A stretch of 64,000 nucleotides of DNA from Henckelia pumila. Taxonomy: Eukaryota; Streptophyta; Magnoliopsida; Lamiales; Gesneriaceae. This document shows, piece by piece, positions 7,925 to 63,325 of the stretch. The notes under the pieces were generated by a model. It did no database searches. It had not been told where the DNA came from and saw nothing but the letters and a program-made list of their open reading frames with translations. A program made the translations under genes and the position numbers. How positions within the stretch are numbered: the stretch's first letter is position 1; every line of letters starts with the position of its first letter. Location of the stretch: positions 67,541,442 to 67,605,441 of the forward strand of contig NC_133122.1 of assembly GCF_033568475.1 (NCBI RefSeq), in the 5' to 3' direction.

Positions 7925-9240
7925 TGATCGAGCAAATACCAACACTTAAATTCAATGTAATAATATCTCTTTTCTGCTCAAAATTATCGCAAGTGCATGA
8001 CTCAAGTTATAGAAAAGTGTACTGAGTACGAGTATCGTCCTCAGGGACTACGTCACAATGATTCAATTATTTAATTTCTATACCCCAAAGTAACGAAAAT
8101 TTGATTTTGTTATTATTCTAAAATTATAAAGTAAATAATTCAATTTAAAATTACTTGAATGAAAATAAAATAAACCACAGCAATGCTTAGCACAGAAAAA
8201 TATAATATGAAGAAGTTTTGTTGGAATCTCGGTTCACCTTCCCCCTAATTGAATCTGGACAATTGAAATTACTTTTACACTCATAGATTTGACAAGAATT
8301 CCTGAAATATCGACACTCTCTCTCGAGTTTATGCCAATCTAATTCAAGTTAATGAAACAATAAAATCTCTTTGATTATTTATCATTACTGATTTCTTTGC
8401 GTTCATTGAATTCTTACAACTTTCAACCTGGTAGTCTATGGTTATCAACATGTACTAAATATCATATCTCTATGCATATTTTAAGTCCATGGATTTTATC
8501 ACTCGTCCTAATCATGAATCTATCTCTCGACAACAATTCACAACTTACGAATCTATATTGAAGTTAGCTACTCCTCAACATAGAATAATAAAACATGATA
8601 AAATCAAATACTTGCATAAAAACTCAATCAATTTGTCCAACGATTCAATCACAAAAACATGTTACGGGGTTAGGATCCCCTAAATTTCAACAAAATAAAG
8701 TTTAGCTACTACAACTCATGATAAAATTCAAACTAATAAAGTTTTCAACATAAAATTCAGAAATCGTGAAGAAGAAAAACTCCCAACGAGAAGAAGAAAC
8801 TTTGATCTTCAGAGCCGCCTCCGCCGTGCTTTGCTGTGTTTTTCCAACCCTCAAAACGTCTGAAAAGATGCTATATATTGCCCCCAGAGTACTTTCCTTT
8901 TAAAACTCCCGAAATAAAAGTTTCAGCAAATACGCGCGGGCGCTCGGTCTGCAAAAATTCACCAACCGAGCGCTGCCTTTTCTCAACTCTCTGCCTCCGC
9001 TTTTTATGCCAGCGCTCGGTCTGCTCTTTTCTGCAGACCGAGCGCACCCCTTTGTGAGGCCAGAAATATTTCTTTTTCTAGTTTTCCTGCAAATTTAACC
9101 ACAAATCAATAGGAGTAGACAAAACACACAACATTACACTAAATGCAAACAAAATTAGAAAAACACTAACAAGACCACAAGAAACTAATGCAAAACACTA
9201 ATAAAACAAACAATAGAACAAGGAAAAACGACTCCTATCA
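7925..9240 (-). repeat. Athila 3' LTR
   Basis: This 1316-bp repeat matches 17920-19230 over its whole length. On the - strand it begins TGATAGGAGT and ends TTGCTCGATCA. A TATA-like box (CAATATATAG on the - strand) is at about 8871-8880. Upstream of it lie two 34-nt inverted-repeat units, at 8940-8973 and 9012-9045. Open frames within it are not genes: equivalent frames occur in both LTRs because the sequence is duplicated. Confidence 0.95.
8940..9045 (-). repeat. Two 34-nt 13-8-13 inverted-repeat units, Athila 3' LTR
   Basis: Unit 1 is 8940-8973: arm GCGCTCGGTCTGC, spacer aaaaattc, partly degraded second arm. Unit 2 is 9012-9045: arms GCGCTCGGTCTGC and GCAGACCGAGCGC, a perfect 13-bp inverted pair with spacer tcttttct. 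The matching units in the other LTR are 18930-18963 and 19002-19035. They lie upstream of the LTR TATA-like box on the - strand. Confidence 0.9.
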
Positions 9241-10858
9241 ACCTCCCCAAACTAACATTTTGCTTGCCCTTAAGCAAAATAGGTGACAAACTAGAATGCA
9301 AACAAAAACACGACACAACGACAAAGGTGAATGAATTCAAACTTTTCAAGCCTCAGAATTTCTTCCAAAAGATTACAAATCCAATCATATCAATCACTAA
9401 CATTTTTAAAAAATACAAACTAGAAAACCTTGTAAACTCCTAAATCCCGCAACTCACATATCAACATGCCTTCCTCCGAATTCAATTCACACATTCAAGG
9501 ATCATGAGGACTTTTTAGGTACTATAAGCTCAAAGATGAGAGACATTCAATGATACACACTTCACATTGGTTTAAATCAAAGAAGTACAGTGTGTGCGTG
9601 TTTTGATCAAAAATCCATACTCATTAAAAGTTTCTATCAACTATCCATAGGCTAAATTCTCACAACTCTTCTCCACTAGTATATTGGGCAACTGTGACTC
9701 GGTCAATAGGTCTTAATAAGCTTATAATGTTAGGCCTGGTTTATGGCTACAAACGAAGGATATCGATTCAATTAAGGGAATAAGTTATACCCAACTGTTC
9801 ATTTTCATTTCCTTTTTCTTTTTCTTTCTCCTTCTAATTCACTTCATCAATCTATTGACTTCACTTCTTTTGCAAAATTTTCTTTTCATCTCAACTCTTT
9901 ATAAATTTTTTATTTTTTCTTTTTCAGCATTTCCAAACACACCATTTCACTTTGCAATTACAATTCCGGAGCATATACCATTTCACATTCAACTTACTCC
10001 CTTTAGGGTGGGAAATATTGTTTAAGCTATTCTTTGGTAGTGAGTGTAGGATTAGAAAAAAATGATGAATGGGGGTTTATTCACACGTTTTCACGCATGC
10101 CATTCGATTTCAACAAAGCTCAAAGAAGTTACTAGAGATAGCATGTATCGAAAGGTAGCTTGAAAGGCTCAAACGATTCGCATAAAGATTGCCTAAATCA
10201 TTCCTAATCACAGTTATGCCCGTATTGCGCCTCGAAGAGTATTAGTTCTAGACAAGTCTCAATTCACAATCAATTCATACAAATTTTGACCAGTGCAGAA
10301 ATAAGCAATCATCAGCAGTAAACGATGATTGTCAACAAATTTCAGATTTTTGTACCTCATGTACTCATAAAAATTGTGAAGGCTCAACAGGGCTTTTAAG
10401 GATGACGTTACTTCAAGAGAAACTAGGCCAAAAAATTCAAACAACGCCTCAATCCTATTCAAGTTTGTACGTTTCAAATTCAGACTCAAGCATACATCAC
10501 AGAGTATATAAATATCTATTCATCTACTTGGTTCTACCAGTTAAAAAAAAATTTGTCAAAAGATGCTCATGGATTTCAGCTATCAACCACAAACATAAAA
10601 AAAAAAAAAAATTTCTTCATCACTGGCTTTTATGATTTCATCCAGAAATGCATGCATAACACAACACAAAACAAAAGATAATGACAAAATGCAAGAAAAC
10701 AAATTAAAGACAAGATGCATGAAAACATAAAAGATACCCTCCCCAAACTAAAATCTAGCAGTGTCCCCAATGCTAGACAAACGAAACAAAACAACAAGAA
10801 GAAAACATGCAAAACACACAAAACAATAAAAAAAAAATGAAAACAAAAACTCCCCTGA
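9241..10858 (-). other. Athila 3' untranslated region and polypurine tract
   Basis: Immediately next to the 3' LTR the - strand reads TTTGGGGAGGT (9241-9251), the polypurine tract that primes plus-strand DNA synthesis. The rest, to the env-like stop at 10859, is AT-rich with homopolymer runs and no supportable gene. A second purine-rich GTTTGGGGAGGG-like run occurs on the - strand near 10737-10748, just after the env-like ORF; it could be an older or secondary polypurine tract. Confidence 0.7.
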
Positions 10859-11995
10859 TTATTGGTCCTCGTCGTCGCCGTCGGCTTCATCATCTGAATC
10901 ATCAAGATAATTTGCTCGAAGAGAAGTATAGTGGAAATGGAACGGAGGGGGATATGGTGGCGGAGTGGGGTAGGCAGTAGGATCCAATCCGGCATTAGAG
11001 ATTAATGCTCGAAGCATAGCAGTCTATGATTCCGAGTGGGCACTATCGACTTTCTGGTACTCATTCTGGTATTGAGCCCAAGCATACAACTCATTTGTCA
11101 TCTCAGTGGCAGGGCGGCGACTTGGCACTGGTTTAGGTATGCGGCTCGAAGAGGTACCGGCCCCGGAACTTGCTTGTCCCTGCGATGTGAAATCTTGTAA
11201 TCTGAAATTTTTCTTTGTCCTCACAAGTGACTGGTCCACATCTTGCATCGGATGCTTCCATTTTTCATCATCTCGGATTTTTACTCCAGCTTTCACACAG
11301 AGGGCGGTGATGATAGATGTGAAGAAGATTCCAATGTTCGGTGAGCGGATGGAATTGTATAACTCTCTGTTGATGAGCTTTCCTACATTGATTGGTCATT
11401 TTTTGTGCAAGGCATACAACAACAAAGATCGGCTCATCACCACGACATGTGTATGGGACACCGGCATCATCCGGTGCGTGAGGAACGCATACCACAAAGC
11501 CGATTCCATTGTCAAAAACTTTTCTTTAAAAGATATAAACCTAGCCGAATCCTTCCACACATTCCCATCATAACACAGTGCAACAGACATGATATTATAA
11601 TCCGGATTAGCTTTAAATTCTTGGAATAGGATATCGTCTACCTCCGGGGTTTTCAATAAATTGTTAATAACTTGAGGATCGAAAGAAACCATCTTACCCC
11701 GGACAAAGGCTGTGCTATCTGTTCGTTCCGGGGCGTTTGCATAGAATTCTCTTACCAACGGAACAACAGCCGTCTTTGGTGTTCGGCAAAACTCAGCCCA
11801 TCCACGTTCCGGGATACCGAGGGCGAGAGTAAGAGCCTCGGATAGATCGATGCCTCGCTCTGGAATAGGATTCCGATTGATCCTCGCAGCTTCATTGCGT
11901 GATTTGGCCTCCATGGATATTAACTTGCCATCAATGATGTTGGAAGAAGAAGGAGTAGCATGAGAGGTGGCAATCTTTGCTCTTTTAGGACCCAT
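10859..11995 (-). pseudogene. Athila env-like ORF, two in-frame stops
   Basis: The likely start is the ATG at 11995 (MGPKRAKIATSH), chosen because a TATA-like box and pyrimidine-rich leader precede it; the open frame extends further upstream into poorly conserved sequence. The product would be about 378 residues. The middle part (GWAEFCRTPKTAVVPLV, REFYAN, FVRGKMVSFDP) resembles the plant transposon-type domain also seen in the SIRE third ORF. The tail is acidic (DDSDDEADGDDEDQ). In-frame stops TGA at 11396-11398 and TAG near 11024 break it; the same frame continues to TAA at 10859-10861. No clear signal peptide or transmembrane segment is visible, so a true envelope role is unproven. Confidence 0.75.
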
Positions 11996-12342
11996 CTTAA
12001 TCGAAATCAGAGAAAAATCAGAGAGAGCACCTGCGAATTTGATGAGCAAAAGTGAGAAACAGGAGGAGAGAGGCGGCGTAGGGTTTGGAAGGAGAGAAGG
12101 AAAGAAAGAAATAGGAGAGGGAAAGGGGATCGGGTTATATACTTTACAGATTCTGCGCGATGCGCTCGGTCTGCTCTTTTTAGCAGACCGAGCACATACC
12201 CGATTATATAAAACAGAGAGTTGGGGATTTTTGGGCGCTCGGTCTGCTGAAAATAGAAGACCATGCGCTTCCCCAAATGAACAAAATAGTAAACTCGGGT
12301 GTTTTTGGGCGCTTGGTCTGCTAAAATTTGGAGACCGAGCGC
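11996..12342 (-). promoter_or_regulatory. Putative internal promoter of Athila env-like ORF with three 13-8-13 units
   Basis: Reading the - strand, three 34-nt inverted-repeat units (12309-12342, 12235-12268, 12162-12195; arms based on GCGCTCGGTCTGC, spacers taaaattt, tgaaaata, tcttttta as written on +) are followed by a TATA-like GTATATAA at 12135-12142. A roughly 140-nt pyrimidine-rich leader then runs to the ATG at 11995. The same arm sequence lies upstream of the TATA in the Athila LTRs, so LTR and internal region share a promoter-like module. Promoter activity is inferred. Confidence 0.5.
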
Positions 12343-12509
12343 AACCATTTTTGAATTTTTTTTTCAAAGAAAAAAACGTAAAGTAAAACCACTAGAAATC
12401 AAAAGAATGAAAAAATAAAAAGTTCAAAGCAAAATATAATAAAATAAAAGAAAGGTAAGGGAGTAGTTCTCAATTTAGAGTCTAGAGCTCGACTGTTTTC
12501 CTCCCCAAA

Positions 12510-13400
12510 CTAGTCTTGGTCGGTCAGTGTGGTGATGACTAGCGTAGAGTCGACATCATCCCCTACATAGTGTTTCAGTCTATGAGAATTGACCGTGAAA
12601 GAGTCGTTTCTTGCATCTTTTATTTCAATGGCCCCCGATGGATACACCTTAGTGATTTTGTAAGGGCCGGACCACCGAGACTTCAATTTTCCAGGAAAGA
12701 GACTCAACCTGGAGTTAAACAGAAGAACTACTTCCCCTTCCTTAAATTCTCTATGATGAATGCGCCGATCATGTATTCTCTTGGTCCTTTATTTGTATGA
12801 CACAGCCATATCATATGATTGATCACGAAATTCCTCCAATCGGTTTAGCTCAAGCAATCCTTTCTTACCTGCAGTAGCAAATTCAAAATTTAATGCTTTG
12901 ATAGCCCAATATGCTCTATGCTCTAACTCAACTGGCAAATGACATGTCTTTCCAAACAACAGTCTATAAGGGGAAGTATCTATAGGTGTTTTGAAAGCAG
13001 TCCTATAGGCCCATAATGCATCATCAAGTCGAAGTTCCCAATCCTTTCTATTAATGCTCACACTTTTTTCTAAAATTTTCTTAATTTCTCGATTGGATAC
13101 TTCGACTTGGCTACTCGTTTGGGGATGATAAGCTGTAGAAACTTTATGCTTGACACCATATTTCTTCAAAAGTTTTTCAAAAAGTTTATTGCAAAAGTGG
13201 GTGCCACCATCACTAATAATTGCACGGGGTGTATCAAAGCAGTTAAAAATATTTTTCTTCAAAAATTTTAGAACCACCTGTGCATCATTAGTTGCAAAAG
13301 CTTCAGCTTCTACCCATTTAGAAACATAATTGACGGTGACCAAAATGTTTTTTTTTTTGTAAAAGAGTTTGGAAATAGTTCCATGAAGTCGATTCCCCAC
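12510..13400 (-). pseudogene. Athila integrase core and C-terminal part, broken
   Basis: The - strand frame 13400-12789 encodes the integrase catalytic core ([42 protein letters not shown]) and the [17 protein letters not shown] and [14 protein letters not shown] blocks. A stop near 12789 separates it from the C-terminal KLKSRWSGPYKITKVYPSGAI motif, which ends at 12510. It overlaps the RT frame at 13310-13400 because a T-run near 13348-13360 (A-run on the coding strand) has shifted the frame. No chromodomain is seen, as expected for Athila. Confidence 0.85.
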
Positions 13401-15223
13401 ACATCAAATATCTCACACTCAATAATATTATTCAATGGCATTTCATGACGGTTTGAGATATTACCTGTCCGCTGACATCTATCACACTCAAGAACATAAG
13501 CACGCGCATCTTTAAAAATATTGGGCCAATAAAACCCACATTCAAGTACCTTAGTTGTCGTCTTGATAGGCCCAGCATGGCCACCTACCTCACGATCATG
13601 ACAATGACTGAGGATGCTTGTCATTTCTCCTTCCGCCACACATCTTCGGATCATAGAGTCAGCACAAATTTTAAACAAGAAAGGTTCTTCCCAGAAATAA
13701 TGCTTTACATCTGATAGAAACTTTTTCTTTTGATGAAAAGACAAATTATGTGGGAGTGTGCTCGTGACCAAGTAATTTGCAAAATTAGCATACCACGGGG
13801 AGTGTTCTATGGCAAACAACTTCTCATCAGGAAACCAATCATCTATGTCCTTAGTATCATTCTGTGCACAATCATGAATGCATTCTAGTCTAGATAGGTG
13901 ATCGGCAACAACATTTTCTACTCCTTTTTTATCTTTTAACTCTAAGTCAAATTCTTGTAAGAGTAGAATCCACCTAATCAACCTAGGTTTTGCATCTTTC
14001 TTAGCCAAAAGGTGTTTAATTGCAGAATGATCAGTGTAAATAGTGATTTTTGAGAGTACAAGGTATGAGTGAAATTTGTCCAGTGCAAAAACTACAGCCA
14101 GCAATTCCTTTTCAGTGGTAGCATAATTCAATTGAGCCTCATTCAGAGTTTTTCTAGCATAGTAAATAGTACAAAATACCTTGTCTATCCTCTGGCCAAG
14201 TACATCTCCGACAGCTGTGTCGCTGGCATCACACATTACCTCAAACGAAAGATCCCAATCTGCTGAAGTCAGCACTGGTGCAGTCACCAATTTTTCTCTC
14301 AGAAATTCAAACGCCTGCAAACAAGTTGAATCAAAATTAAAAGGTGTATCTTTCATTAATAATGAAGATAGAGGTTTTGCAATTTTTGAGAAATCTTTAA
14401 TGAACCGCCGATAAAAATTGGCGTGGCCTAGAAAACTTCTGACTCCCTTGATCGTCGTCGGTGGAGGTAGATTCTGAATGACTTGCACCTTGGCCCTGTC
14501 CACATCGAATTCCTGCTCCGATATGCAGTGTCCTAATACAATGTCTTCGGTCACCATGAAGTGACACTTTTCCCAGTTGAGTACCAAGTTTGTTTCATCA
14601 CATCTCATCAAAACAGTGTTAAGATTATTCAGACATGCATCAAAAGACTGACCAAAAATGGAAAAATCATCCATGAATATTTCTAGAAAATTTTTGACCA
14701 TATCGTGAAATATAGTAGTCATGCATCTTTGAAAAGTCGCAGGAGCATTGCAAAGACCAAAAGGCATGCGTCTATAGGCAAACGTACCATATGGGCAAGT
14801 GAAAGTTGTTTTATCCTGATCTTTAAGTGCAATCGCAATTTGATTGTATCCTGAATACCCATCTAAAAAGCAATAAAACTCATACCCAGCAAGACTTTCT
14901 AGCATTTGGTCAATGAAGGGGAGGGAAAAATGGTCTTTATGGGTTGCGTCATTCAATTTTCTATAGTCTATACATACACGCCACCCTGTAACTGTCCTAG
15001 TAGGTATCAACTCATTATGTTCATTTTTAATGACAGTTATTCCCCCTTTTTTTGGTACACATTGAACCGGACTTACCCATGCACTATCAGAAATGGGATA
15101 AATGATACCTGCATCCAGAAGTTTTATCGTTTCAGCCTTTACCACTTCTTGCATCTTGGGATTAAATCTCCTCTGTGGTTGGACCATGGGGTTGATGTTC
15201 TCTTCCATTAATATCTTGTGCAT
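13310..15223 (-). pseudogene. Athila reverse transcriptase, RNase H and integrase zinc domain
   Basis: A 637-codon open frame. Residues about 1-200 hold reverse transcriptase ([48 protein letters not shown], catalytic box FMDDFSIFG). RNase H follows ([52 protein letters not shown]). The integrase HHCC zinc domain is near residues 530-590 ([22 protein letters not shown]). The frame then leaves the true integrase frame at a homopolymer near 13350, giving a spurious C-terminus. This is the best preserved part of the element. Confidence 0.92.
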
Positions 15224-15262
15224 GCAGATAAATGGATTAATGCCTTTGATATCTGCAACCTT

Positions 15263-15520: not shown

Positions 15521-15610
15521 GTAAGCCGTAATCTCTTCTTTATCCCCATTGACTATGTCATCACGATGAGGAGATATTAGTGAGGCTTCTAATGGTTCCT
15601 GAAATGTATC

Positions 15611-17829: not shown

Positions 17830-17896
17830 AGATGAAAATAGTGATTAAAATTGAAGTAGAGAAAATAAAATAAGAAAAATCAAAGCAATCAATAGT

Positions 17897-17919: not shown

Positions 17920-19230
17920 TGATCGAGCAAATACCAACACTTAAATTCAATGTAATAATATCTCTTTTCTGCTCAAAATTATCGCAAGTGCACGACTCAA
18001 GTTATAGAAAAGTGTACTGAGTACGAGTATCGTTCTCAAGGACTACGTCACAATGATTCAATTATTTAATTTCTATACCCCAAAGTAACATGATTTTGTT
18101 ATTATTCTAAAATTATAAAGTAAAGAATTCGATTTAAAATTACTTGAATGAAAATAAAATAAACCACAGCAATGCTTAGCACAGAAAAATATAATATGAA
18201 GAAGTTTTGTTGGAATCTCGGTTCACCTTCCTCCTAATTGAATCTGGACAATTGAAATTACTTTTACACTCATAGATTTGACAAGAATTCCTGAAATATC
18301 GACACTCTCTCTCGAGTTTATGCCAATCTAATTCAAGTTAATGAAACAATCAAATCTCTTTGATTATTTATCATTACTGATTGCTTTGCGTTCATTGAAT
18401 TCTTACAGTTTTCAACCTGGTGGCCTATGGTTATCAACATGTATTAAATATCATATTTCTATGCATATTTTAAGTCCATGGATTTTATCACTCGTCCTAA
18501 TCATGAATCTATCTCTCGACAGCAATTCACAACTTACGAATCTATATTGAAGTTAGCTACTCCTCAACATAGAATAATAAAACATGATAAAATCAAATAC
18601 TCGCATAAAAACTCAATCAATTTGTTCAACGATTCAATCACAAAAACATGTTACGGGGTTAGGATCCCCTAAATTCCAACAAAATAAAGTTTAGCTACTA
18701 CAACTCATGATAAAATTCAAACTAATAAAGTTTTCAACATAAAATTCAGAAATCGTGAAGAAGAAAAACTCCCAACGAGAAGAAGAAACTTCGATCTTCA
18801 GAGCCGCCTCCGCCGTGCTTTGCTGTGTTTTTCCAACCCTCAAAACGTCTGAAAAGATGCTATATTTATTCGCCCAGAGTCCTTTCCTTTTAAAACTCCC
18901 AAAATAAAAGTTTCAGCAAATACGCGCGGGCGCTCGGTCTGCAAAAATTCACCGACTGAGCGCTGCATTTTCTCAACTCTCTGCCTCCACTTTTTATGCC
19001 AGCGCTCGGTCTGCTCTTTTCTGCAGACCGAGCGCACCCCCTTGTAAAGCTAGAAATATTTCTTTTTCTAGTTTTCCTGCAAATTTAACCACAAATCAAT
19101 AGGAGTATACAAAACACACAACATTACACTAAATGCAAACAAAATTAGAAAAACACTAACAAGACCACAAAAAACTAATGCAAAACACTAATAAAACAAA
19201 CAATAAAATAAGGAAAAATGACTCCTATCA
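17920..19230 (-). repeat. Athila 5' LTR
   Basis: This 1311-bp repeat is a near-identical copy of 7925-9240. On the - strand it begins TGATAGGAGT (right end) and ends ...GCTCGATCA at 17920. The 13-8-13 units at 18930-18963 and 19002-19035 are kept. The TATA-like sequence near 18860-18870 is altered relative to the other copy. Confidence 0.95.
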
Positions 19231-20349: not shown

Positions 20350-22588
20350 TTTCAGAGTGCGAGAGACGACTTTATTTTGATCAGGGTCTATTTTGCAAAT
20401 TTCAGATTTTTCAGGGACTAAAACGCAAATTTGGATTTTAATATATTATCTACACTTGGTTGAGTTGAAAAGTCTTCATCTCCTTCCTCTTCTTCCTCTC
20501 CTTAGCCGTCTCCCACCATTGAAGCGCCCCATTTGAGTTTTAAGCTTTCAGATTTCGGTTTTCGGTCGATCCGTCCGTTAGAATTTATTTCTGAAGGCAG
20601 TTTAGCGATCACGGCATCGAGAGCTTCGTTCTATCGTAAGTTTTTCTCCGATCAGATATTTTTTATTTTTTTTGATGTAGTTGGAATTTGATTCTTTTCG
20701 GGTATGATGTTCTTGAGATAGTTTTTATCGTTTATTCTAAGACGAAATTGAATTAGAGCGTCGTTCTGAATTGTTATGATTTTTGGAAGTGAATTTTGGA
20801 AATGTGGATTTTGAGATTTGATGGGTTTGAGTATTTATTGTGGTATTGGTATTGATATGAGTTGGTAGCGATATTGTATTGTTGTCTGCGTTTCTGGTTT
20901 GATCAGAACATAGTCGTTATGCTGCCGGTTTGAGTTTTGGATTATCGTTTGGGCTATTTTGGTTTGAGCCGTGATTAGTTGAGTTTGAATGTCAATCTTG
21001 ATCTAGAGCCTTTATTACTTCTTTTGCATAATTTTTTGAAGGCCGTTGAGTTGCGAGATTTGCAGAAATTGGATAGTTGGAAGATCGAAGACGGTATTGT
21101 ATCGACTTTCTTCTTATCGTTAGAGGATATTCGAATGTATCTTGATTGAGGAATTGTTGTTTTTTCCAGGTTTGAAGCATCGACGTTTTGAGAAAGATAT
21201 AAGACGACTTTGGTATGGAATGGGACGATTAACTCGAATTTGGATTGATTCGAATGTCCTAAAAGAAAATCACATACTTGCATGTTTGAATGCTTATTTG
21301 ATTTATATTTGAATGCATGAGATTTCATATGCATTCATATTGAGCCTATTGATTATTCATTTTGATTTAGACGATCTTGGGATTGTAGTTGAGTTGCTTT
21401 GGTAGGCGATTTTCTACCTTGTCGTTTAACTCACTATGATTCTCTGGAGTCTAGATGATTAAAGTATACCTCGTCCACCTCGAAAGGGGAGTTTGGTGTG
21501 ATTGTTGGATATTTTAACCTCGGGATCCCAATCGAAGAAAAGAAGATAAGAATTGCATTTTGATTATCTGTGTTTGATAATCCTGAAATTTTAAAGTCAT
21601 GAATATCATTTTAATTCCGCATTTGAATGGATTTCTTATATATATCTTGAGTTGATATATTATGTGGAATTTTATGCATATCATGTTTGATATGTTTATG
21701 TGATATTGCATGTTAGTCTCTTTTACTGGGAATATTATTCTCACAGGATTATCCGGCTGTTGTCTTGTCTTTGTATATGTTCTTGGAATCAGGCGAGGCA
21801 GGACCGAGTCAGAGATCGCATGGATAGTTGGGATGTGAAGATAGAGTGAGGACTTGTTGTTTTGGAAGTCGATTATGTAATCGAACTTAGATTGTATTCG
21901 AACTCGTTTGTATTGTATTGCATTGAATAAGCTAGACTGAAGCAAATTCTACTAGTTTTGAGATTGTATAACCCTAGAACTATCTTGTTTTGGACTATGT
22001 ATGTTGTTTGGATGAGTTATGCTTTGTTGGAATGCTTTGGTTTTGGAATTTGAACTAGAACCTTGTTCTGGTTTTCTGTGCAGAAGTGGCCGCTTGATCG
22101 GTAGAATTTGACCGATCGAGCGGTGGTGCTGCAGCCCTGTTTCTGTTTTTGAAAATGAGTGCCCGCTCGATCGGTTGAATATTACCGATCGAGCGGTGCT
22201 GGTTTATTTTTCCCGGGCAGTGAGTTTGTAATTTCTGCTCGCTCGATCGGTTGATTTCTGCCGATCGAGCGAGGCTCCTTTTAAAAAATAAAAAAAATTC
22301 TTACTCTTCTAAATCTTGTATGCTTGTATTGTTTTTTCCGAGATTAGATGTTTAGAATCGAGGCCTCACATGCTGGGAGTTATATTTGCCTACAGTTAGT
22401 TTCATGTTGTAAATATGCATGGTAAAATATATTTGGGTTTTTAGTGCTGGCTATATCCCGCCGGTTACTGTTGTACTAGGTTTTTAAGTTTTCGCAATAA
22501 AATCTGTTATTTTAGTAAGTTTTTTGTATTAAGCAAATTGCATGTTTAAGACTTCTGGTTAGTAAGTGATACAGACTGGGTCACTACA
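20350..22588 (+). mobile_element. LTR C: solo or truncated gypsy LTR inside the SIRE LTR
   Basis: From about 20360 the sequence parallels the B LTRs at 54460 and 61414 (GATTTTTCAGGGACTAAAACG, then the GGCAGTTTAGCGATCACGGC region and TTTTACTGGGA), but it lacks the first about 70 bp including TGTAACGCCCC. It ends GGGTCACTACA at 22588, a gypsy-type LTR end, with no internal region following. A 9-bp repeat TTTATTTGA occurs at both edges (20341-20349 and 22592-22600); gypsy normally makes 5-bp duplications, so this may be partly chance. It carries three 13-8-13 units. Confidence 0.7.
22090..22273 (+). repeat. Three 13-8-13 inverted-repeat units in LTR C
   Basis: Units at 22090-22123, 22163-22196 and 22238-22273. 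Arms are CCGCTCGATCGGT/ACCGATCGAGCGG or CTCGCTCGATCGGT-type, with only one or two mismatches. Spacers are agaatttg, tgaatatt and tgatttct, each exactly 8 nt. A CCTTTTAAAAAATAAAA run follows directly. Confidence 0.93.
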
Positions 22589-26801: not shown

Positions 26802-28880
26802 TGTAAGGCCCAGAATTATTTGATTTAATTCGGGATTATTTAATTTTAATCCGAGAATATTTAATTTGAGAATTTTTAGAGTTTAGATTTAAATTCTAAT
26901 ATTTTTAAATTATTTAGGATTGAAATTGAATTAAAAGAAGTTGCAGGGCTAGTATGCAACTAGTGAAGAATTAAAAGGGCCAAAGTGCAAAATCCTTAGT
27001 CTTAGTGGGACACTTGTCAAGTGCATGCATATTCACGTGTATTTTCACCATTATCATCAGAAAATACAGAGCATGAACCGAGAGAAGAATAGAAAGGAAA
27101 CTCAAGCCATTTCTTCATCTTGAAGCTTTGATTGTTGAAGATTCAGCTATCCGATTTCAAATTCGGGCACGATTTTGGAATCCTTGCAAGAAGGACTTTG
27201 TTTTGATGTAAAAATCTATTTGCTTTAGATTATTTCGAAAATATGTTGGGGAAATCAGAATTGAAGCATGAGGTAATGTTCGTGATGTTGTATGTATTGC
27301 AATATCGAAGACGAATCGAAGAAAGGATATCGTATGCATTTGTTATGATTTATTGAAGTAATTTCAAAATTCCTACCATCTGATCTTGCTGGTTTTGAAC
27401 GTGTATGTGTTGGTTTTGATGATTATGTGATGTTATGGTTGTTAGAAGTAGTTTCGGTTGCCGAATTTATGCCGTTACGCCGCCGAACTTGTGATTTGAG
27501 GCTGTTTTTCTATCTTGTATTGAGCTGAGTTTCGATGAGTTCTTAGCTAAAGTTCTTGGCTTATATAAACTTCATTTCAGATTGTTATTGAAGTGTTTTG
27601 AACTCGAGAACGTCAACTTTGAACCGGTGAAGATTTAAAGAAAGGTTTGAAGTTATTCTACAATAGAGTTTCATTGTACTTGAATGCAGATTTTGATATA
27701 GGTTTGGTTGTTGTGTTGTACAGATTTGGATAGCTTGGAGACACCGTGAAAACTCACACTTGAAAGGTATAAGTCGACACTAGATTAGCGGGATGAATAC
27801 GCGAGATATGTTTGTATCTCGAGTTCCCAAACCAAACCACATACTTATGTGTTCTATTACTTGATTATATGGCTTTTGATCTTTTTGTCAATGTGTTAAA
27901 GATGATTTGTATTTTGATGAGTTTGTGTGATATATCTTGGCATTCATCTTGAGCCTATTCTTTGAATTTGAAATGGACTGAATCGTCTGACATAGATGTG
28001 TTGAAAAGTCTATACTCGAGTGGCCTAGGTGGTTGATTTAGCCTAGCGTCCGAATACTCCTTATAGTTACTCCCACGTCTAGAGTAAAAATATGTAGTCT
28101 ACCTTGATCGAGAAAATCGGTGGAATTACTACGTTATCTGACCTCGGGATCCCAACCAAAGAATTGAGAGCTTGATAGATTAGTAGTTGTTGAACCTGTT
28201 TTTAAATCATGCATCTCATTTCTTTTATGTTATGAATTTGATATATATTGATTTGCATGTATGTCGCTTTTACTGGGAATTATGTTTTTCACCGGAATTA
28301 TCCGGCTGTTGTCGTGTTGTATGTGTCATGGCAACAGGTGGAACAGGAACAGGGCAAAGAAGAGCGTGAGAGATCAAATCTTAAAGTGGTGATCCGAGTT
28401 TAGATGTCAATTTTGCTGTCAAACTCTTGTGATAGGTTCAAGAACATGATCTTGTAGGTGCTAGACTTGATCTTATGTAAAAAGATTTTACTACTTGAAA
28501 GTGTAATAGCACATGATTATGTTGTGACTACTTATGCAGTGACATGTTGGATGTTGTGTTGTTGTCTTGATGATGCTTATTGAATTTGATAAATCAAGGT
28601 AGCATGGAGTAGGATGGCCTGGACAATAGCTGAGCAATCTTTTTTTTTTTTTTCTGGAGCATTGGCCCGCGCAGGGGCGAGCCTCTAGCTCGCGCGCGCG
28701 TGAGCCAACTAGCAAGGCTGCTGGATTGGTGGTCTGCGCTCGCGCGAGAGTTGAGCCTCGCGCTTGCGCAGGGCATTTCCAATTTTTTTAAAAAAATTTT
28801 TTTGTTTTGATGCTTAGCTTTAATTCATGAATCTTGGATTAAATGTTTTGAATTGAGAGATTAGCACTCGGGTCCCCACA
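26802..28880 (+). repeat. Chromovirus A 5' LTR
   Basis: A 2079-bp LTR starting TGTAAGGCCC and ending GGGTCCCCACA. Its first part matches 43776-44016 and its continuation matches 50485-51060. Near its 3' end lies a GC-rich block (28664-28770) followed by a T/A-rich run (AATTTTTTTAAAAAAA). Small open frames inside have no motif. Confidence 0.9.
28664..28770 (+). repeat. GC-rich inverted-repeat block in A 5' LTR
   Basis: The clearest unit is 28735-28770: arms TGCGCTCGCGCGAG and CTCGCGCTTGCGCA (12 of 14 pair) with an 8-nt spacer agttgagc. A weaker partner near 28668-28702 has arms around CGCGCAGGGGCGAG and CTCGCGCGCGCGTG with a 7-nt spacer. Confidence 0.75.
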
Positions 28881-29235: not shown

Positions 29236-32027
29236 TGTGAGGACCCGAGTTCTAATATCTCATTTACTCGAATTATCATGAATCATAGACAACTCGAATC
29301 ATCATGAATCATAGACAAGAATCAATGTCTAAACAACATTAAAAAAAAAATTAAAATGGAGCACCTCGCTCGATCGGTAAAAAGCTACCGATCGAGCGAG
29401 CACATTGATTCAACTCTCGGATGTGCTCCAATTGTGGCCTCGCTCGATCGGTTCATCTTCACCGATCGAGCGAGCCACTCATGCTCACAATTCTGTTCTC
29501 AACTTCAGGGCCTTGCTCGATCGGTGATAATCCCCCGATCGAGCGAGCTCATTTTCCAGAAAACATCAGGAGCTTTCGCTGTCAAATGCTATACAATTCC
29601 TTCCACATACTCTAGTCATTCATGATATATTGATACAACAACCATTCAATCTTGTAACCACAACTAAAATATATCCTAAACATGATATAGTTGAAGAGAA
29701 ACAAGATTACCATACACTAGAATAAAGTCTCATGCTAGAATCAAATATCATATAAGAGTCATTAAGTTACATCATGTTGTCTTAAGGATTACAACATCAT
29801 TACCAATCCTATATACATCATCAAGACAACAACTTGATAACCAACAAGTCTTGGTACAAGTAACTATAACATAATCATGTGTTTGACATTCAACACTATC
29901 ATTGACAGCTCACACAAACCATCTAAACTCGGATCATCACGCTATTCTCCTCATCCCTTGTTTTTCAAGATTGCCTTTGCCCTGTTCCATTCCCACCTAT
30001 TGCCATGACACATACAACATAACAATAGCCGGATAACTCCGGTGAGAAATATATTTCCCAGTAAAAGCAACTAAACATGCATATAAACATATATCAAGAT
30101 CATGATATAAGGAAAAGCAATGCATGTTTTAAAACAAGGTTCACTATTCGAATTCTATCGTTTCATCGGTTGGGATCCCGAGAAGTAGATATCATAACTA
30201 ATCCATCGACTCTCCCGATCGAGGTGGGGCTACTTATCTCACTTCTCTAGACTTTGAAGCCATTATATATGTAAATCAGACGCTAGGCTAAAACAACCAC
30301 CCAGGCCATACATATACAATCCCTCAAATCGTCTATTCGAACGTTTCCGTTCATTTCAAAATCAAGGAATAAGTCTTTCAAGATGAATGCAATATATATC
30401 AATCAAACCACATTCAGTAACATCAAGACTTATTCAACAATTCAAAGAAAACCACATAAGAGCAAATAAACAAACAAGTATGTGATTTAGGGGAACTCGA
30501 TACAAACCATCTCGAGTTGTAATCCCAATCAAATAGTAGTCCACTTTTACCTTCGTATTTTGTCTGTTCTAAATTCTTCAAATCTGAATTGCAACCTCAA
30601 AACATTCACCTCAATCTTCGTTCAATCCATTCCTTTCAGAATCGAGTCCAAATCATCAACACATCTTCAATCAAATTTATTCCAACCTCAAGCGAACTTC
30701 CTCGGTTCACAATCCGATCTCTTGAGTTGATTGAGCTCGAAGCACTTCTGAAATATAAAGATTATCATCTAACAAAATCAGTATACAATCCCAAGATCAT
30801 TGGCTCAATCGTAAACTATCAGTATGGTTTCAAAACATAACCAAGCATCGTAGCGATTGAAAATCGGGAATCGTTATGGTATCGAATTCAATTCTAATTT
30901 CAACTCCATTCATACGGCTTTTCATATCCGTTCATTGTCATTCAACTCTTCAAACCAACAGCTATTATCATAAACATATCCAAGAACATCTCATCTCGAA
31001 AATCTGCTATCAAACTTGTCTCAAAACACATATCGACGGCGTAGCGATTAAAAATCGGTAACCGACGACATATCGACTTCGAATATAACTTCATATCATT
31101 ATATATCATCAACACCAGCTAATTACCAGCATAATCAGATGCTACACAAGTTGAAATCTATGCTGGTTATCATATGAATTTCATTCAATACTCAAGATTC
31201 AATTCGGTTTCGAATATACAACACTAGAATATCGATAACATGATCAAACAAATCAACTTCTGATTTCTACCCATATTCGAATTTCAAAATCTATTCAAGA
31301 CATCATAAACCTTACATCAAATCGAAGGCTCGTTGCAAGGATTCCAGAACATCTTTCGGAATTGAAATCGGACGAGCGGATCAAAAGTTACGGCGATTTA
31401 AAAAACTCAAAATCATAAGAAAAAGATGAGCTCTCGGCTCTCTGTTCAGACTTTCTCAATTCATATGCTTTCAACACGTGAAATTGCTGAATAATCTGAT
31501 TAAATTCGGATAGATATTGCATAAATTGCAATTTAGTCCCTCAAGTCTTCAGTAATTACAATTCAGTCCTCGGCCTTCGTTTTAATTCAATTTCAATTCT
31601 AAATAATTTAAGAATATTAGAATTTAAATCAAAACTCTAAATATTCCCAAATTAAATATTTTCGGATTAAAATTAAATCAATTCGGATTAATTAAATAAT
31701 CTCGACCGTTTGCACTTCAGCCCTTCAAATGTCAGTATTTGCAAATCAGTCCCTGATCGGGTTGTATCTTCCAAATTCATCTTCTTTAATTTCCGAAACA
31801 TGGAATTTAATCTTAAACTCCATAAATATTCAAATTGAATATTTATTCTTTTAATTTAATAATTCTCGAAATTTAATTCTCAAAATCCGCATATTCTCAA
31901 ATTAAATATTTTCGGCTCGGAAATTAAATCTATCATTTTCATAACTTCTCAAATCAATATTAGCCCATAATATGGAATTTAATTCTCAAATCCCATAATT
32001 AATAATTTAATATTTTTGGGCCTTACA
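29236..32027 (-). repeat. LARD-like element 3' LTR
   Basis: A 2792-bp LTR, near-identical to 36294-38988 apart from about 100 bp near 30425-30526 that the right copy lacks. Frames encoding MEHLARSVKSYRSSEH on the + strand recur in both LTRs only because the repeat units are duplicated. Confidence 0.93.
29365..29547 (-). repeat. Three 14-8-14 inverted-repeat units, LARD-like left LTR
   Basis: Units at 29365-29400, 29439-29474 and 29512-29547. Arms CTCGCTCGATCGGT and ACCGATCGAGCGAG are perfect in the first two and nearly so in the third. Spacers aaaaagct, tcatcttc and gataatcc are each 8 nt. In the element's own direction they are followed by an A/T homopolymer run. Confidence 0.95.
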
Positions 32028-36293: not shown

Positions 36294-38988
36294 TGTGAGG
36301 ACCCGAGTTCTAATCTCTCATTTACTCGAATCATCATGAATCATAGACAACTCGAATCATCATGAATCATAGAAAAGAATCAATGTCTAAACAACATAAA
36401 AAAAAAAAAATTTAAAATGGAGCACCTCGCTCGATCGGTAAAAAGCTACCGATCGAGCGAGCACATTGATTCAACTCTCGGATGTGCTCCAATTGTGGCC
36501 TCGCTCGATCGGTTCATCTTCACCGATCGAGCGAGCCACTCATGCTCACAATTCTGTTCTCAACTTCAGGGCCTTGCTCGATCGGTGATAATCCCCCGAT
36601 CGAGCGAGCTCATTTTCCAGAAAACATCAGGAGCTTTTGCTGCCAAATGCTATGCAATTCATTCCACATACTCTAGTCATTCATGATATATTGGTACAAC
36701 AACCATTCAATCTTGTAACCACAACTAACATATATCCTAAACATGATATAGTTGAAGAGAAACAAGATTACCATACACTAGAATAAAGTCTCATGCTAGA
36801 ATCAAATATCATATAAGAGTCATTAAGTTACATCATGTTGTCTTAAGGATTACAACATCATTACCAATCCTATATACATCATCAAGACAACAACTTGATA
36901 ACCAACAAGTCTTGGTACAAGTAACTATAACATAATCATGTGTTTGACATTCAACACTATCATTGACAGCTCACACAAACCATCTAAACTCGGATCATCA
37001 CGCTATTCTCCTCATCCCTTGTTTTTCAAGATTGCCTTTGCCCTGTTCCATTCCCACCTATTGCCATGACACATACAACATAACAATAGCCGGATAACTC
37101 CGGTGAGAAATATATTTCCCAGTAAAAGCAACTAAACATGCATATAAACATATATCAAGATCATGATATAAGGAAAATCAATGCATGTTTTAAAACAAGG
37201 TTCACTATTCGAATTCTATCGTTTCATCGGTTGGGATCCCGAGAAGTAGATATCATAACTAATCCACCGACTCTCCCGATCGAGGTGGGGCTACTTATCT
37301 CACTTCTCTAGACTTTGAAGCCATTATATATGTAAATCAGAAGCTAGGCTAAAACAACCACCCAGGCCATACATATACAATCCCTCAAATTGTCTATTTG
37401 AACGTTTTCGTTCATTTCAAAATCAAGGAATAAGTCTTTCAAGATGAATGCAATATATATCAATCAAACCACATTCAGTAATATCAATCAAATAGTAGTC
37501 CACTTTTACCTTCGTATTTTGTCTGTTCTAAATTCTTCAAATCTGAATTGCAACCTCAAAACATTCACCTCAATCTTCGTTCAATCCATTCCTTTCATAA
37601 TCGAGTCCAAATCATCAACATATCTTCAATCAAATTCATTTCCAACCTCAAGCGAACTTCCTCGGTTCACAATCCGATATCTTGAGTTGATTGAGCTCGT
37701 AGCACTTCTGAAATATAAAGATTATCATCTAACAAAATCAGTATACAATTCCAAGATCATTGGCTCAATCGTAAACTATTAGTATGGTTTCAAAACATAA
37801 CCAATCATCGTAGCGATTGAAAATCGGGAATCGTTATAGTATCGAATTCAATTCTAATTTCAACTCCATTCATACGGCTTTTCATATCCGTTCATTGTCA
37901 TTCAACTCTTCAAACCAACAGCTATTATCATAAACATATCCAAGAACATCTCATCTCGAAAATCAGCTATCAAACTTGTCTCAAAACACATATCGACGGC
38001 GTAGCGATTAAAAATCGGTAACCAACGACATATCGACTTCGAATATAACTTCATATCATTATATATCATCAACACCAGCTAATTACCAGCATAATCAGAT
38101 GCTACACAAGTTGAAATCTATGCTGGTTATCATATGAATTTCATTCAATACTCAAGATTCAATTCGGTTTCGAATATGCAACACTAGAATATCGATAACA
38201 TGATCAAACAAATCAACTTCTGATTTTTACCCATATTCGAATTTCAAAATCTATTCAAGACATCGTAAACCTTACATCAAATCGAATGCCTCGTTGCAAG
38301 GATTCCAGAACATCTTTCGGAATTGAAATCGGACGAGCGAATCAAAAGTTACGGCGATTTGAAAAACTCAAAATCATAAGAAAAAGATGAGCTCTCGGCT
38401 CTCTGTTCAGACTTTCTCAATTCATATGCTTTCAACACGTGAAATTGCTGAATAATCTGATTAAATTCGGATAGATATTGCATAAATTGCAATTTAGTCC
38501 CTCAAGTCTTCAGTAATTGAAATTCAGTCCTCGGCCTTCGTTTTAATTCAATTTCAATCCTAAATAATTTAAGAATATTATAATTTAAATCAAAACTCTA
38601 AATATTCCCAAATTAAATATTCTCGGATTAAAATTAAATCAATTCGGATTAATTAAATAATCTCGACCGTTTGCACTTCAGCCCTTCAAATGTCAATATT
38701 TGCAAATCAGTCCCTGATCGGGTTGTATATTCCAAATTCATCTTCTTTAATTTCCGAAACATGGAATTTAATCTTAAACTCCATAAATATTCAAATTGAA
38801 TATTTATTCTTTTAATTTAAGAATTCTCGGAATTTAATTCTCAAAATCCGCATATTCTCAAATTAAATATTTTCGGCTTGGAAATTAAATCTATCATTTT
38901 CATAACTTCTCAAATCAATATTAGCCCATAATATGGAATTTAATTCTCAAATTCCATAATTAATAATTTAATATTTTCGGGCCTTACA
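36294..38988 (-). repeat. LARD-like element 5' LTR
   Basis: A 2695-bp copy of the left LTR. It lacks about 100 bp after 37480, with ATC/ATCAA microhomology at the break. Inverted-repeat units at about 36426-36461, 36500-36535 and 36573-36608 are kept with the same arms and spacers as the left LTR. Confidence 0.93.
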
Positions 38989-54459: not shown

Positions 54460-56349
54460 TGTAACGCCCCATTTTTATCTTAAATGAGTTTATTTGAGTT
54501 AATCGGAGATTACAGAGTTCACGAGCCGACTCGATTTTGATCAGGGTCATTTTTGCAAAAATTGGATTTTTCAGGGACTAAAACGCAAATTGTGGATTTT
54601 ATATATTATCTACTCTTAGAAATTGGTTGACAAAGTCTTCTTCATCCCCTCCAAGCCATCTCCCTCCATTCTCACGCCTCCAAGCTTTGGGATTCCAGCC
54701 CGAGCACGATCCGGCCGTTGGAATTTATTTCTGAAGGCAGTTTAGAGATCACTGCAGCGAGAGCTCCGTTATATCGTAAGTTTTTCTACGATCGGATGCA
54801 TTCTAGTTTTTGGATGTTGTTAGAATCATTTGAGATTCGAGTATGTTGTCCTCTACAGAGTTCTGATCGTTTATTATCTGTCGGTTTTAAATTAGAGCGA
54901 CGTTCGGATTTGTTATGATTTTTGGAAGCCATTTTCGAAAATGTGGATTTTGAGATTGATGGGTTTGCTTTGTTTTGGTTGTCTTAGAATTTTTATGAGG
55001 TTATATCGCTATTGAACTGCTGTCTGCGTTGTCGGTTTGTTCAGTTATAGCCGTTATGCCGTCGGTTTGAGTTTTGGAGAATTGAACCGTTTTTGAAGTT
55101 GTTGAACTTGGCTTGTAAGTCGATCATGGTAATTGATCTTTGATTGTATCTGAACAGATTCGTTTGGAGTTGGCAAGCCCTGTGTTAGCAGCATTTGGTC
55201 GTCGAGTATTGGACGAAGAACGGTAAAGAGATTACCTTGAATCGTTGCCTTGTTTTTGGATTGTTTAGTTGTTGATTAAACCTTTTGTTGTAGCTTATCC
55301 AGAGTTGGAACTACTGCATTGAAAGGTAAAAGTAGTCATCGTAGCGGGATAGCATACTCGGGACTGTTGGTTCTCGAGTTTTCCCTTTTTAAATCACATA
55401 TTGCATTGATACTTGTTCTAGCACGTGGAACTTGTAATTGTTGATTGATTGAGTTTTTGTTATGTGGCTTATGTTTATGTTTCTGTTATGCATTCATCTT
55501 GAGCCTACTTTGATTTCAGCGGGCAGAACCGCCCTTTTTGTTAGACGTTTGGGAACTATGATTGAGTGGCCTAGGTTGTAGTATTTCGCCTAGTGCTAGC
55601 ATACTCATTATGGTTGCTCAAAGTCTAGAGGAGTGGGATACGTGGCACCACCTCGATTGGGAGAGTCGGTGAGTCGTTACGTGATCTCATCCTCGGGATC
55701 CCAAAAGCAGAGCAATACTCCCGTGTTTATCAGAATCGATATCCTGGTTTTAAAGACATGCATATCATTAACTTCGACTTGAATATGTGGTTTGATAGCA
55801 TGTTGTATATTCATTACTTGATATGTTGCTTTTACTGGGATTATCATTCTCACCAGTTATCCGGTTGTTGCTTTGTTTTGTATGTGTACTTGGCAACAGG
55901 AAGGGCAGGATCAAGTCAGCATAGACCTGGTTAGCGTCCAGAGCAAGAGATAGAAGTGAGACTCGTTTAGAAGTCGAATCAGCATGTCAACCTAGTTATG
56001 TTTTGCGATCATGTTTAGTCATTCGAACTTCTCGTATATGTTTTGTAAGCAAGAAACATTGTAGGTGCTATTGAATTGAATGTTGCTCTTCCCTAAACCT
56101 TTCTTGTATTGTTATTGGAATGTCAAATACTCTTAATGCAAGTGTTTAGGTTTTGATTGAGTTTATTACAGTGCCTTAACCTTTCTGGGCGAGGGGACGG
56201 CGCGGGCGCGCTTCCTTTGGCGCGGGCATGCGGCCTCTTTGCGAGGTATGAGCGTGGGCGCGCTTCCTTTGGCGCGGGCGCGCTGGGTTTTGCGGGGCGT
56301 AGGCGCGCGCGCTGATGTCAGCGCGGGCGCGCGAGCCTCCTTTAAAAAA

Positions 56350-56382
<33 letters not shown>

Positions 56383-56445
56383 TTGGGTTCTTGATTACTT
56401 ATCGCTTGTTGTCTGATATTAGTTGTTTAGAAACGAGGTCTCACA
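54460..56445 (+). repeat. Chromovirus B LTR 1
   Basis: 1986 bp, ends TGTAACGCCCC and GGTCTCACA. It serves as 3' LTR of B1 and 5' LTR of B2. Near its end are a GC-rich unit block (56189-56335) and a TTTAAAAAAATATATAC plus TA-repeat run (56341-56382) that could supply a TATA box. The primer-binding site TGGTATCAGAG is at 56451. Non-coding otherwise. Confidence 0.92.
56199..56333 (+). repeat. GC-rich 13-8-13 units in B LTR 1
   Basis: Units at 56199-56232, 56251-56284 and 56300-56333. Arms are variants of GGCGCGGGCGCGC, which is almost self-complementary, so copies read as both direct and inverted repeats. Spacers are ttcctttg, ttcctttg and tgatgtca, each 8 nt. LTR 2 keeps a clear unit at 63194-63227 and has lost others. 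Confidence 0.75.
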
Positions 56446-56745
56446 TTAAGTGGTATCAGAGAGTTAAGATTCTTGGTCGAACTAGAGTGAGCGGGTAGAT
56501 CGAGTCTGCGAGTATTGGCTCCTCGCATGTGTTTGAATTATTTTAACTATGTACTTAATTCCATGCGAGCATGCTTTATTATTGAAAATTATTGAATTAC
56601 ATGGTTATGTGATTTAATTTATAACGCATGATCTACTTGAGATATAACTGTTTCTGTTACCGAATTGTATCCGGTATTCCAAGCGGTTGTAAGGGCACTG
56701 ATTGTAGCGATTGAGATATCTCGTGTGCTAACTTTTGATTATCAG

Positions 56746-58594: not shown

Positions 58595-58597
58595 GAT

Positions 58598-61276: not shown

Positions 61277-61413
61277 TCTGACATGAGACAGCGTTTTTCA
61301 GAGTTATTCAGTTGACGTGAGTTCTTCTTACTGTCTTTAGTTCTTTATTCTAGCTTATGAGTTGTGGTTCTTGTTGATTTCGAGGACGAAATCTCTTCTT
61401 AGTGGGGGAGAAT

Positions 61414-63325
61414 TGTAACGCCCCATTTTTATCTTAAATGAGTTTATTTGAGTTAATCGGAGATTACAGAGTTCACGAGCCGACTCGATTTTGATCAGGG
61501 TCCTTTTTGCAAAAATTGGATTTTTCAGGGACTAAAACGCAAATTGTGGATTCTATATATTATCTACTCTTAGAAATTGGTTGACAAAGTCTTCTTCATC
61601 CCCTCCAAGCCGTCTCCCTCCATTCTCATGCCTCCAAGATTTTCCAAGCTTTGGGATTCCAGCCGAGCACGATCCGGCCGTTGGAATTTATTTCTGAAGG
61701 CAGTTTAGCGATCACTGCAGCGAGAGCTCCGTTATATCGTAAGTTTTTCTACGATCGGATACATTCTAGTTTTTGGATGTTGTTAGAATCGTTTGAGATT
61801 CGAGTATGTTGTTCTCTACAGAGTTCTGATCGTTTATTATCTGTCGGTTTTGAATTAGAGCGACGTTCGGATTTGTTATGATTTTTGGAAGCCATTTTCG
61901 AAAATGTGGATTTTGAGATTGATGGGTTTGCTTTGTTTTGGTTGTCTTAGAATTTTTATGAGGTTATATCGCTATTGAACTGCTGTCTGTGTTGTCGGTT
62001 TGTTCAGTTATAGCCGTTATGCCGTCGGTTTGAGTTTTGGAGAATTGAACCGTTTTTGAAGTTGTTGAACTTGGCTTGTAAGTCGATCATGGTAATTGAT
62101 CTTTGATTGTATCTGAACAGATTCGTTTGGAGTTGTCAAGCCCTGTGTTAGCAGCATTTGGTCGTCGAGTATTGGACGAAGAACGGTAAAGAGATTACCT
62201 TGAATCGTTGCCTTGTTGTTGGATTGTTTAGTTGTTGATTAAACCTTTTGTTGTAGCTTATCCAGAGTTGGAACTACTGCATTGAAAGGTAAAAGCAGTC
62301 ATCGTAGCGGGATAGCATACTCGGGACTTTTGGTTCTCGAGTTTCCCCTTTTTAAATCACATATTGCATTGATACTTGTTCTAGCACGTGGAACTTGTAA
62401 TTGTTGATTGATTGAGTTTTTGTTATGTGGCTTATGTTTATGTTTCTGTTATGCATTCATCTTGAGCCTACTTTGATTTCAGCGGGCAGAACCGCCCTTT
62501 TTGTTAGACGTTTGGGAACTATGATTGAGTGGCCTACGTTGTAGTATTTCGCCTAGTGCTAGCATACTCATTATGGTTGCTCAAAGTCTAGAGGAGTGGG
62601 ATACGTGGCACCACCTCGATTGGGAGAGTCGGTGAGTCGTTACGTGATCTCATCCTCGGGATCCCAAAAGCAGAGCAATACTCCCGTGTTTATCAGAATC
62701 GATATCCTGGTTTTAAAGACATGCATATCATTAACTTCGACTTGAATATGTGGTTTGATAGCATGTTGTATATTCATTAGTTGATATGTTGCTTTTACTG
62801 GGATTATCATTCTCACCGGTTATCCGGCTGTTGCTTTGTTTTGTATGTGTACTTGGCAACAGGAAGGGCAGGATCAAGTCAGCATAGACCTGGTTAGCGT
62901 CCAGAGCAAGAGATAGAAGTGAGACTCGTTTAGAAGTCGAATCAGCATGTCAACCTAGTTATGTTTTGAGATCATGTTTAGTCATTCGAACTTCTCGTAT
63001 ATGTTTTGTAAGCAAGAAACGTTGTAGGTGCTATTGAATTGAATGTTGCTCTTCCCTAAACCTTTCTTGTATTGTTATTGGAATGTCAAATACTCTTAAT
63101 GCAAGTGTTTAGGTTTTGATTGAGTTTATTACAGTGCCTTAACCTTTCTGGGCGAGGGGACGGCGCGGGCGCGCGGCCTCTTTGCGAGGTATGTGCGCGG
63201 GCGCGCTTCCTTTGGCGCGGGCGCGCGAGCCTCCTTTAAAAAAATATATATATATATATATATTGGGTTCTTGATTACTTATCGCTTGTTGTCTGATATT
63301 AGTTGTTTAGAAACGAGGTCTCACA
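61414..63325 (+). repeat. Chromovirus B LTR 2
   Basis: 1912 bp, the same ends as LTR 1 and near-identical body. It is 74 bp shorter overall, mainly in the GC-rich unit block (63150-63232) and the TA repeat (about 63243-63261). The primer-binding site follows at 63331. It is shared by the second and third internal regions. Confidence 0.92.

Follow-up and report, generated by a model that had tools for sequence, protein, structure and literature searches.

Inverted-repeat units with a fixed 8-bp centre in two Ty3-type retrotransposon lineages of Henckelia pumila: candidate promoter-proximal operator arrays

Multi-copy palindromic boxes in plant retrotransposons have been described for the Sireviruses, where the RM boxes (a CGG-CCG signature marks 12 of the 13) lie upstream of the TATA box in the long terminal repeat (LTR) and recur upstream of an env-like gene; the consensus sequences listed are short (10–20 bp) and, in the sections of that source drawn on here, RM boxes are described as absent from classic Ty1/copia elements (PMC2829016; this and the other papers cited are drawn on in part, and statements about them refer to those parts). 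Palindrome clusters in the LTRs of maize Sireviruses have been linked to small RNAs (Bousios et al. 2016, as described in PMC10760457), and the BII boxes of tobacco Tnt1, promoter boxes of an LTR retrotransposon, are reported to bind defence-induced DNA-binding factors and so provide a precedent for a protein reader (PMC3316501). Here we describe GC-rich inverted repeats, with two arms around a spacer of exactly 8 nt, in a stretch of 64,000 nucleotides from Henckelia pumila (the window, C3:67541442-67605441), where they form short arrays in the LTRs of Athila and chromovirus elements and in the interior of the Athila element. On balance, and with modest confidence, we read the units as promoter-proximal operator arrays for a predicted dimeric DNA-binding protein of the host.

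Geometry, spacing and conservation of the units

An earlier note on this DNA had listed nineteen stretches as 13-8-13 inverted repeats, and all of them were read at their coordinates. The description held for the Athila LTRs, the Athila internal region, LTR C, the LARD-like LTRs and the single unit of LTR A, but not for the B LTRs (the names Athila and LARD are taken over from that note). In the 5' LTR of the Athila element the array at 18930..19035 (minus strand) consists of two units with GCGCTCGGTCTGC-type arms and a spacer of 8, at 18930-18963 and 19002-19035 with a step of 72, and the 3' LTR array at 8940..9045 (minus strand) holds its two units at 8940-8973 and 9012-9045 with the same step. 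The internal array at 12162..12342 (minus strand) has three, at 12162-12195, 12235-12268 and 12309-12342, with steps of 73 and 74. LTR C carries three units within 22090..22273 (plus strand; 22090-22123, 22163-22196 and 22238-22273), as does the LARD-like 3' LTR within 29365..29547 (minus strand; 29365-29400, 29439-29474 and 29512-29547, steps 74 and 73), and the three units of the LARD-like 5' LTR at 36426..36608 (minus strand) are identical in sequence to these. LTR A has one unit at 28735..28770 (plus strand) with TGCGCTCGCGCGAG-type arms, a spacer of 8 and 2 mismatches in 14. Arm mismatches per unit number 0–3 in the Athila LTRs, 1–3 in the Athila internal array, 0–1 in LTR C and 0–2 in the LARD-like LTRs.

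The B LTRs were rejected as carriers, since all four of their units have 3–5 mismatches of 13 and, when scored as direct repeats, match better than as inverted repeats in three cases and equally well in the fourth; the DNA is GCGCGG low-complexity sequence. The GC-rich block at 56199..56333 (plus strand) occupies the homologous position in the LTR, with 3–5 mismatches and steps of 52 and 49, and the second block at 63194..63227 (plus strand) has 3 mismatches of 13 as an inverted and 1 as a direct repeat; neither has the 13-8-13 form.

The fixed spacer was examined both in the window and in the whole assembly to which it belongs (884,658,702 bases in 133 contigs). Perfect GC-rich inverted repeats (arms of at least 11, spacers of 0–40) number 14 in the window, five of them at spacer 8, while 60 order-2 Markov surrogates of the window gave 3 such repeats altogether and none at spacers 6–8. 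Genome-wide, the exact arms GCTCGATCGGT/ACCGATCGAGC occur 6,566 times at spacer 8, against 31 at spacers 0–7 and 44 at spacers 9–38, and the reversed-pattern controls gave 0. This excess at 8 is the outcome of the genome-wide survey that the earlier note had named as the test able to refute its claim, and it supports that claim. When the inner arm is relaxed, CGCTCG-N20-CGAGCG is found at 29,921 places (reversed control 2), of which 11,321 have the inner form CGCTCGATCGG..CCGATCGAGCG and the remainder different inner bases. Among the gaps from CGCTCG to CGAGCG in 200 kb of C1, taken in even steps, 13 are exactly 20 nt long and 5 fall at all other lengths from 0 to 60. A wider control, CGCTCG-N{21,50}-CGAGCG, gave 6,032 matches over 30 gap lengths and 2,526 in its own reversed form, and it is not a clean one, many of the matches listed being register-shifted units with the 8-nt spacer or members of a class with self-palindromic CGCTCGAGCG arms.

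Spacer sequences differ between most units, as had been proposed, with 59 distinct 8-mers among the 100 CGCTCG-N20-CGAGCG units listed. In some units at L006 and L007, position 1500, the centre is AAGATCTT, which turns the whole unit into one unbroken palindrome without a spacer.

Outside plants the exact pattern had no match in IMG/VR and a single one among GTDB genomes, at L036:3562-3591 in a Planctomycetota metagenome-assembled genome, which we take to be chance because it lies inside a coding frame and no second unit was found on its contig.

The step between neighbouring units is nearly as regular as the spacer. Among 398 listed places (362 on C1 and 36 on C2, the first in each list and not a random sample) 86 of 87 neighbour steps measure 72–75 bp, the remaining one 65, and the 86 average 73.5 bp, about seven helical turns of 10.5 bp. 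When the loci examined were searched under relaxed conditions, with L012 and L014 omitted as overlaps, 39 of 42 steps fell at 72–75, the others being 71, 76 and 78. Athila-type (GTC) matches have steps of 73–75 in all 9 cases listed and of 72–74 in the window. Units of the self-palindromic CGCTCGAGCG-arm class at C1:1202024-1202124 and C1:4886314-4886414 stand 65 bp from their neighbours, not 72–75. When the intervals between units were compared in 12 arrays, intervals 1 and 2 were little alike (self z from -1.5 to 3.3), with a median z across arrays of 0.9 for interval 1 against interval 2 and of 1.2 and 1.35 for like intervals; the regular step may have arisen by tandem duplication, which this comparison neither shows nor excludes.

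To follow conservation through whole arrays, 12 distinct triple arrays were aligned out of 24 oriented ones, leaving aside near-duplicates, two-unit arrays, Athila and L035. Of the arm columns 63 of 72 are at least 90% identical (median 1.00), whereas 2 of the 24 columns in the spacer and 3 of the 82 in the stretches between units (median there 0.58) reach that level, and these stretches between units keep lengths of 33–39 nt despite their diverged sequence.

Within the arms the two halves of a unit covary. The 100 listed units include 77 unique ones, in which arm positions 7, 8, 10, 11 and 12 pair more often than independence would predict (none of 2,000 permutations reached the observed level); after thinning to 36 clusters the excess is clear at 8, 11 and 12 and weak at 7 and 10 (104 and 107 of 2,000). 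No covariation was seen in the 77 units at arm position 9, and at spacer positions 13–16 pairing stays at the independent expectation. Genome counts, which include copies related by descent, point the same way, with 22,690 ATC/GAT, 625 GTC/GAC and 317 mixed units where independence would give about 26 GTC/GAC and 1,515 mixed; at position 10 (with G at 11) the two symmetric forms number 11,321 and 1,370 and the mixed units 1,891, against 368 minor-symmetric and 3,896 mixed expected under independence.

Host elements and the position of the arrays

The earlier note had assigned the units to five LTR groups and called them independent of family. A self-comparison instead gave two lineages, the LTRs of A, B, C and the LARD-like element aligning with each other at 68–77% in pieces of more than 250 bp, and family independence is half right: Athila and chromovirus are distinct lineages, but A, B, C and LARD are related, the arm start CGCTCG is common to the Athila, C, LARD and A units, and B fails. 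No other similarity between the Athila LTR and the chromovirus LTRs was found at an E value of 1e-3. The pol of the Athila element and that of B are both Ty3-type, with a chromodomain in B in addition; LTRs A, C and LARD are tied to B solely through LTR homology, and the term chromovirus comes from this chromodomain of B. The chromovirus LTR elements are presumably Tekay-like, and this typing covers the elements of the window.

The Athila element lies on the minus strand, has the primer site TGGCGCC and encodes in its pol frame (13310..15223, minus strand) a reverse transcriptase, an RNase H and an integrase zinc domain; the highest identity among the 120 matches listed, from 8,000 candidates scored, is 81% to a Primulina eburnea protein, a match that points to a dicot host of the Lamiales. 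A third open reading frame (ORF) at 11396..12367 (minus strand) overlaps the internal array and extends downstream of it, and its residues 187-320 give a profile match to PF20167 (Transposase_32, putative plant transposon protein). It stands where Athila elements have an ORF3 or env-like gene, and we take it, by position only, to be env-like.

In both lineages the arrays lie a short distance ahead of sequences that could serve as core promoters. The Athila 5' LTR array covers LTR positions 196–301, and a TATA-like sequence was identified by eye at LTR position 361, about 60 bp downstream. The three units of the Athila internal array lie between pol and the third ORF, with TATATAA (~12141) about 20 bp downstream. 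In A, C and LARD the arrays, and in B the GC block, stop 97–129 bp before the LTR end, at about the same place in all four: the LTR C array 97 bp short of the likely end (22370), with an AT tract 5 bp further on, the LARD-like 3' LTR array 129 bp short of the end (29236) and the LTR A unit 110 bp short of the end (28880). By eye, the AT tract begins 5–10 bp after the array in C, LARD and A. In the B LTR the AT tract after the GC block runs into a TA microsatellite (56350-56383), at a place taken by an AT tract in the other LTRs. If the AT tracts and TATA-like motifs are core promoters, as we infer, the arrays would precede them in three settings, namely the chromovirus LTRs, the Athila LTR and the Athila interior. 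A similar spacing of matches (two, three, one) occurs at C1:69880809-69891507, as judged from the listed coordinates.

Elsewhere in the window a perfect 93-bp direct repeat (3941-4033 and 4031-4123, span 3941-4123) belongs to a copia-like region, and matches to a retroviral SH3 domain and, weakly, to RVT_2 lie close to it.

Candidate operator arrays and the alternatives

The unit as we read it would be a dyad in double-stranded DNA, in which a variable centre of 8 bp keeps two conserved outer half-sites, mostly CGCTCGATC in the chromovirus LTRs and CGCTCGGTC in Athila, a constant distance apart. Its reader would most likely be a symmetric dimer of a DNA-binding host protein. Because two or three sites follow each other at about seven turns, the proteins bound to them would all face the same side of the helix directly ahead of the core promoter, where they may activate transcription of the element, and in Athila one module would be used in the LTR and again ahead of the third ORF. 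Such operator arrays would account for the fixed spacer, the step, the position, the second likely promoter and the outer half-site.

Several observations weigh against this reading. In a TATA scan C, LARD and A showed no canonical box beyond the array, only AT tracts, and B a TA microsatellite, which lowered our confidence slightly and raised the RNA and mutational alternatives by a little, and a second TATA-like site (~12210) falls within the Athila internal array. The genome-wide counts are not independent events, most arrays being copies by descent, and the conservation of the arms is partly ascertained, since 7 of the 12 aligned arrays were fetched through one unit matching the exact arms. 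Steps outside 72–75 do occur (71, 76, 78, one of 65, and 65 bp in the CGCTCGAGCG class). Symmetric covariation of the inner arm is not needed by a single dimer of fixed specificity, and inner positions that vary while remaining symmetric are not explained by operator arrays alone; they would call either for several related proteins with different inner preferences or for renewal by template switching. The spacer is also strand-asymmetric, with G in 32 and A in 16 units at position 14 and T in 43 at its partner position 19 (48 units from L001-L034 and the window, in element orientation), which a strict homodimer would not predict. Finally, the paired Athila and LARD LTRs reveal no constraint after insertion, CpG changes amounting to 2/52 within units and 16/213 outside; this is expected for a signal needed only before copying.

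The earlier note had left the choice between a site recognised by a protein and a fixed hairpin, and of these a protein-recognised DNA site fits best, because the sequence of the outer arm is conserved, the spacer is fixed, the step is about seven turns and the arrays lie upstream of likely promoters. In the form of RNA hairpins, the second option, transcribed stems of 12–14 bp with 8-nt loops would act in the RNA of the element or feed the small-RNA silencing of the host. The covariation of arm positions 7, 8, 10, 11 and 12, not shared by the spacer, agrees with such stems, as do the predicted folding energies, whose minima per 110 nt range from -50 to -74 kcal/mol over six array regions including B (values obtained without a shuffled control) and lie below the cut-off of -40 used for microRNA-like regions (PMC10760457). 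A selected RNA stem should, however, favour G-U over A-C mismatches, and no such excess was found; in inferred sense orientation the arms of 48 units hold 10 G-U, 16 A-C and 15 other mismatches, and those of 90 units 25, 32 and 43, which disfavours a hairpin in the sense RNA. The smaller tally was made on 48 of the 54 unique units, omitting L035 and the Athila units; in the larger one 59 of 77 listed units could be oriented and the orientation was inferred for most, by a rule that agreed with the assigned orientation in 36 of the 48 units (mostly oriented by AT content themselves), opposed it in 2 and left 10 undecided. The spacers of the 48 units are rich in G-T opposites (50, against 11 A-C), which is about what their column composition leads one to expect. 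Moreover, the outer arm is kept in sequence, beyond mere pairing, and the step between units would be irrelevant to a hairpin. We consider RNA hairpins unlikely, though they deserve more weight than the three rival explanations taken up next.

Mutation and descent could also maintain such units with no binding protein at all, if an ancestral array had been copied thousands of times and the symmetry of its arms restored by template switches at hairpins as the element is reverse-transcribed or replicated. The descent of most arrays by copying, inner arm positions that change base but remain symmetric and the missing constraint after insertion are all in keeping with this. It predicts neither the fixed 8-nt spacer nor a fixed step across diverged between-unit sequence, nor a geometry and step shared by the chromovirus LTRs, the otherwise dissimilar Athila LTRs and the Athila internal array, and it appears to us distinctly improbable.

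The loxP-type sites of tyrosine recombinases likewise have 13-8-13 geometry, two inverted arms around an 8-bp spacer, and exchange between them requires matching spacers. The recombinase link that had been suggested on this ground did not survive, as a profile search of the whole genome for PF00589 (Phage_integrase) at E ≤ 0.001 gave 0 matches, with positive controls in 14 of 14 genomes, and adjacent units have different spacers; many arms are also imperfect and the arms are not exclusive to one element, and we regard recombinase sites as very improbable. Chance or low-complexity GC-rich DNA, which suits the B LTR blocks, is ruled out for the Athila, C and LARD units by the surrogates (3 repeats in 60 runs, against 14 observed) and by the genome-wide counts at spacer 8, and has next to no probability as a general explanation.

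A further step from operator arrays is that distinct gypsy lineages of one genome have converged on, or exchanged, a single operator grammar of CGCTCG half-sites, a fixed 8-bp centre and a seven-turn step, with a single protein or family of proteins as its reader. This is a tentative suggestion that we think rather doubtful. If it were true, the units would make up a regulon of retrotransposons, at least 29,921 sites strong, that may titrate a host factor or be policed by it, and the half-site variants would be sub-specificities that evolved symmetrically on both arms. Were one protein to read the sites, it would offer a handle on the joint switching-on of thousands of plant retrotransposons and perhaps on their recognition by the host; the geometry is so strict that one DNA probe would suffice to test this.

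Comparison with described systems

The literature search, within the texts it covered, found no paper naming this motif. Matches to arm strings of the units in two plant papers are a wheat probe and a row of birch primers, neither with the dyad (PMC6070686, PMC4414481), and in PMC11963269 the string "palindrom" occurs only in the reference list. Of 20 stretches of 10 kb taken at even spacing from C1, 6 (L016, L020, L021, L026, L030 and L032) hold another type of GC-rich palindrome cluster, GGGCAGCGAT-N3-ATCGCTGCCC, with further GC-rich palindromes near it in L021 and L026; these clusters resemble the RM clusters of Sireviruses.

Tnt1 is a copia element. Its BII boxes have a motif of their own, and no grammar of an 8-bp spacer shared between lineages is described for them in the sections drawn on (PMC3316501). 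The maize Sirevirus clusters are, like the present arrays, GC-rich palindromes in the cis region of the LTR with strong predicted folding, whereas the present carriers are gypsy elements (PMC10760457).

The nearest known kind is the RM box of the Sireviruses, to which the present arrays do not belong but like which they appear to work. The commonest arm here shares CGGT...ACCG with 5 of the 13 RM consensus sequences listed, and the placing of RM boxes in the LTR and before the env-like gene may have its counterpart in the Athila LTR array and the internal array before the PF20167 ORF, the TATA motifs here being sequence matches only (PMC2829016). RM boxes are carried by Ty1/copia elements, the present units by Ty3/gypsy elements (Athila and chromovirus), and unlike RM boxes the units have an exact gap of 8, a dominant outer half-site CGCTCG and a step of 72–75 bp (PMC2829016). 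RM boxes are further defined by at least 8 copies per element, while the Athila element of the window has 2 + 3 + 2 units and the LARD-like element 3 + 3. The comparison would extend a kind of cis-element known from the Copia Sireviruses to two gypsy lineages, one of which, Athila, carries the module at two likely promoters of the same element.

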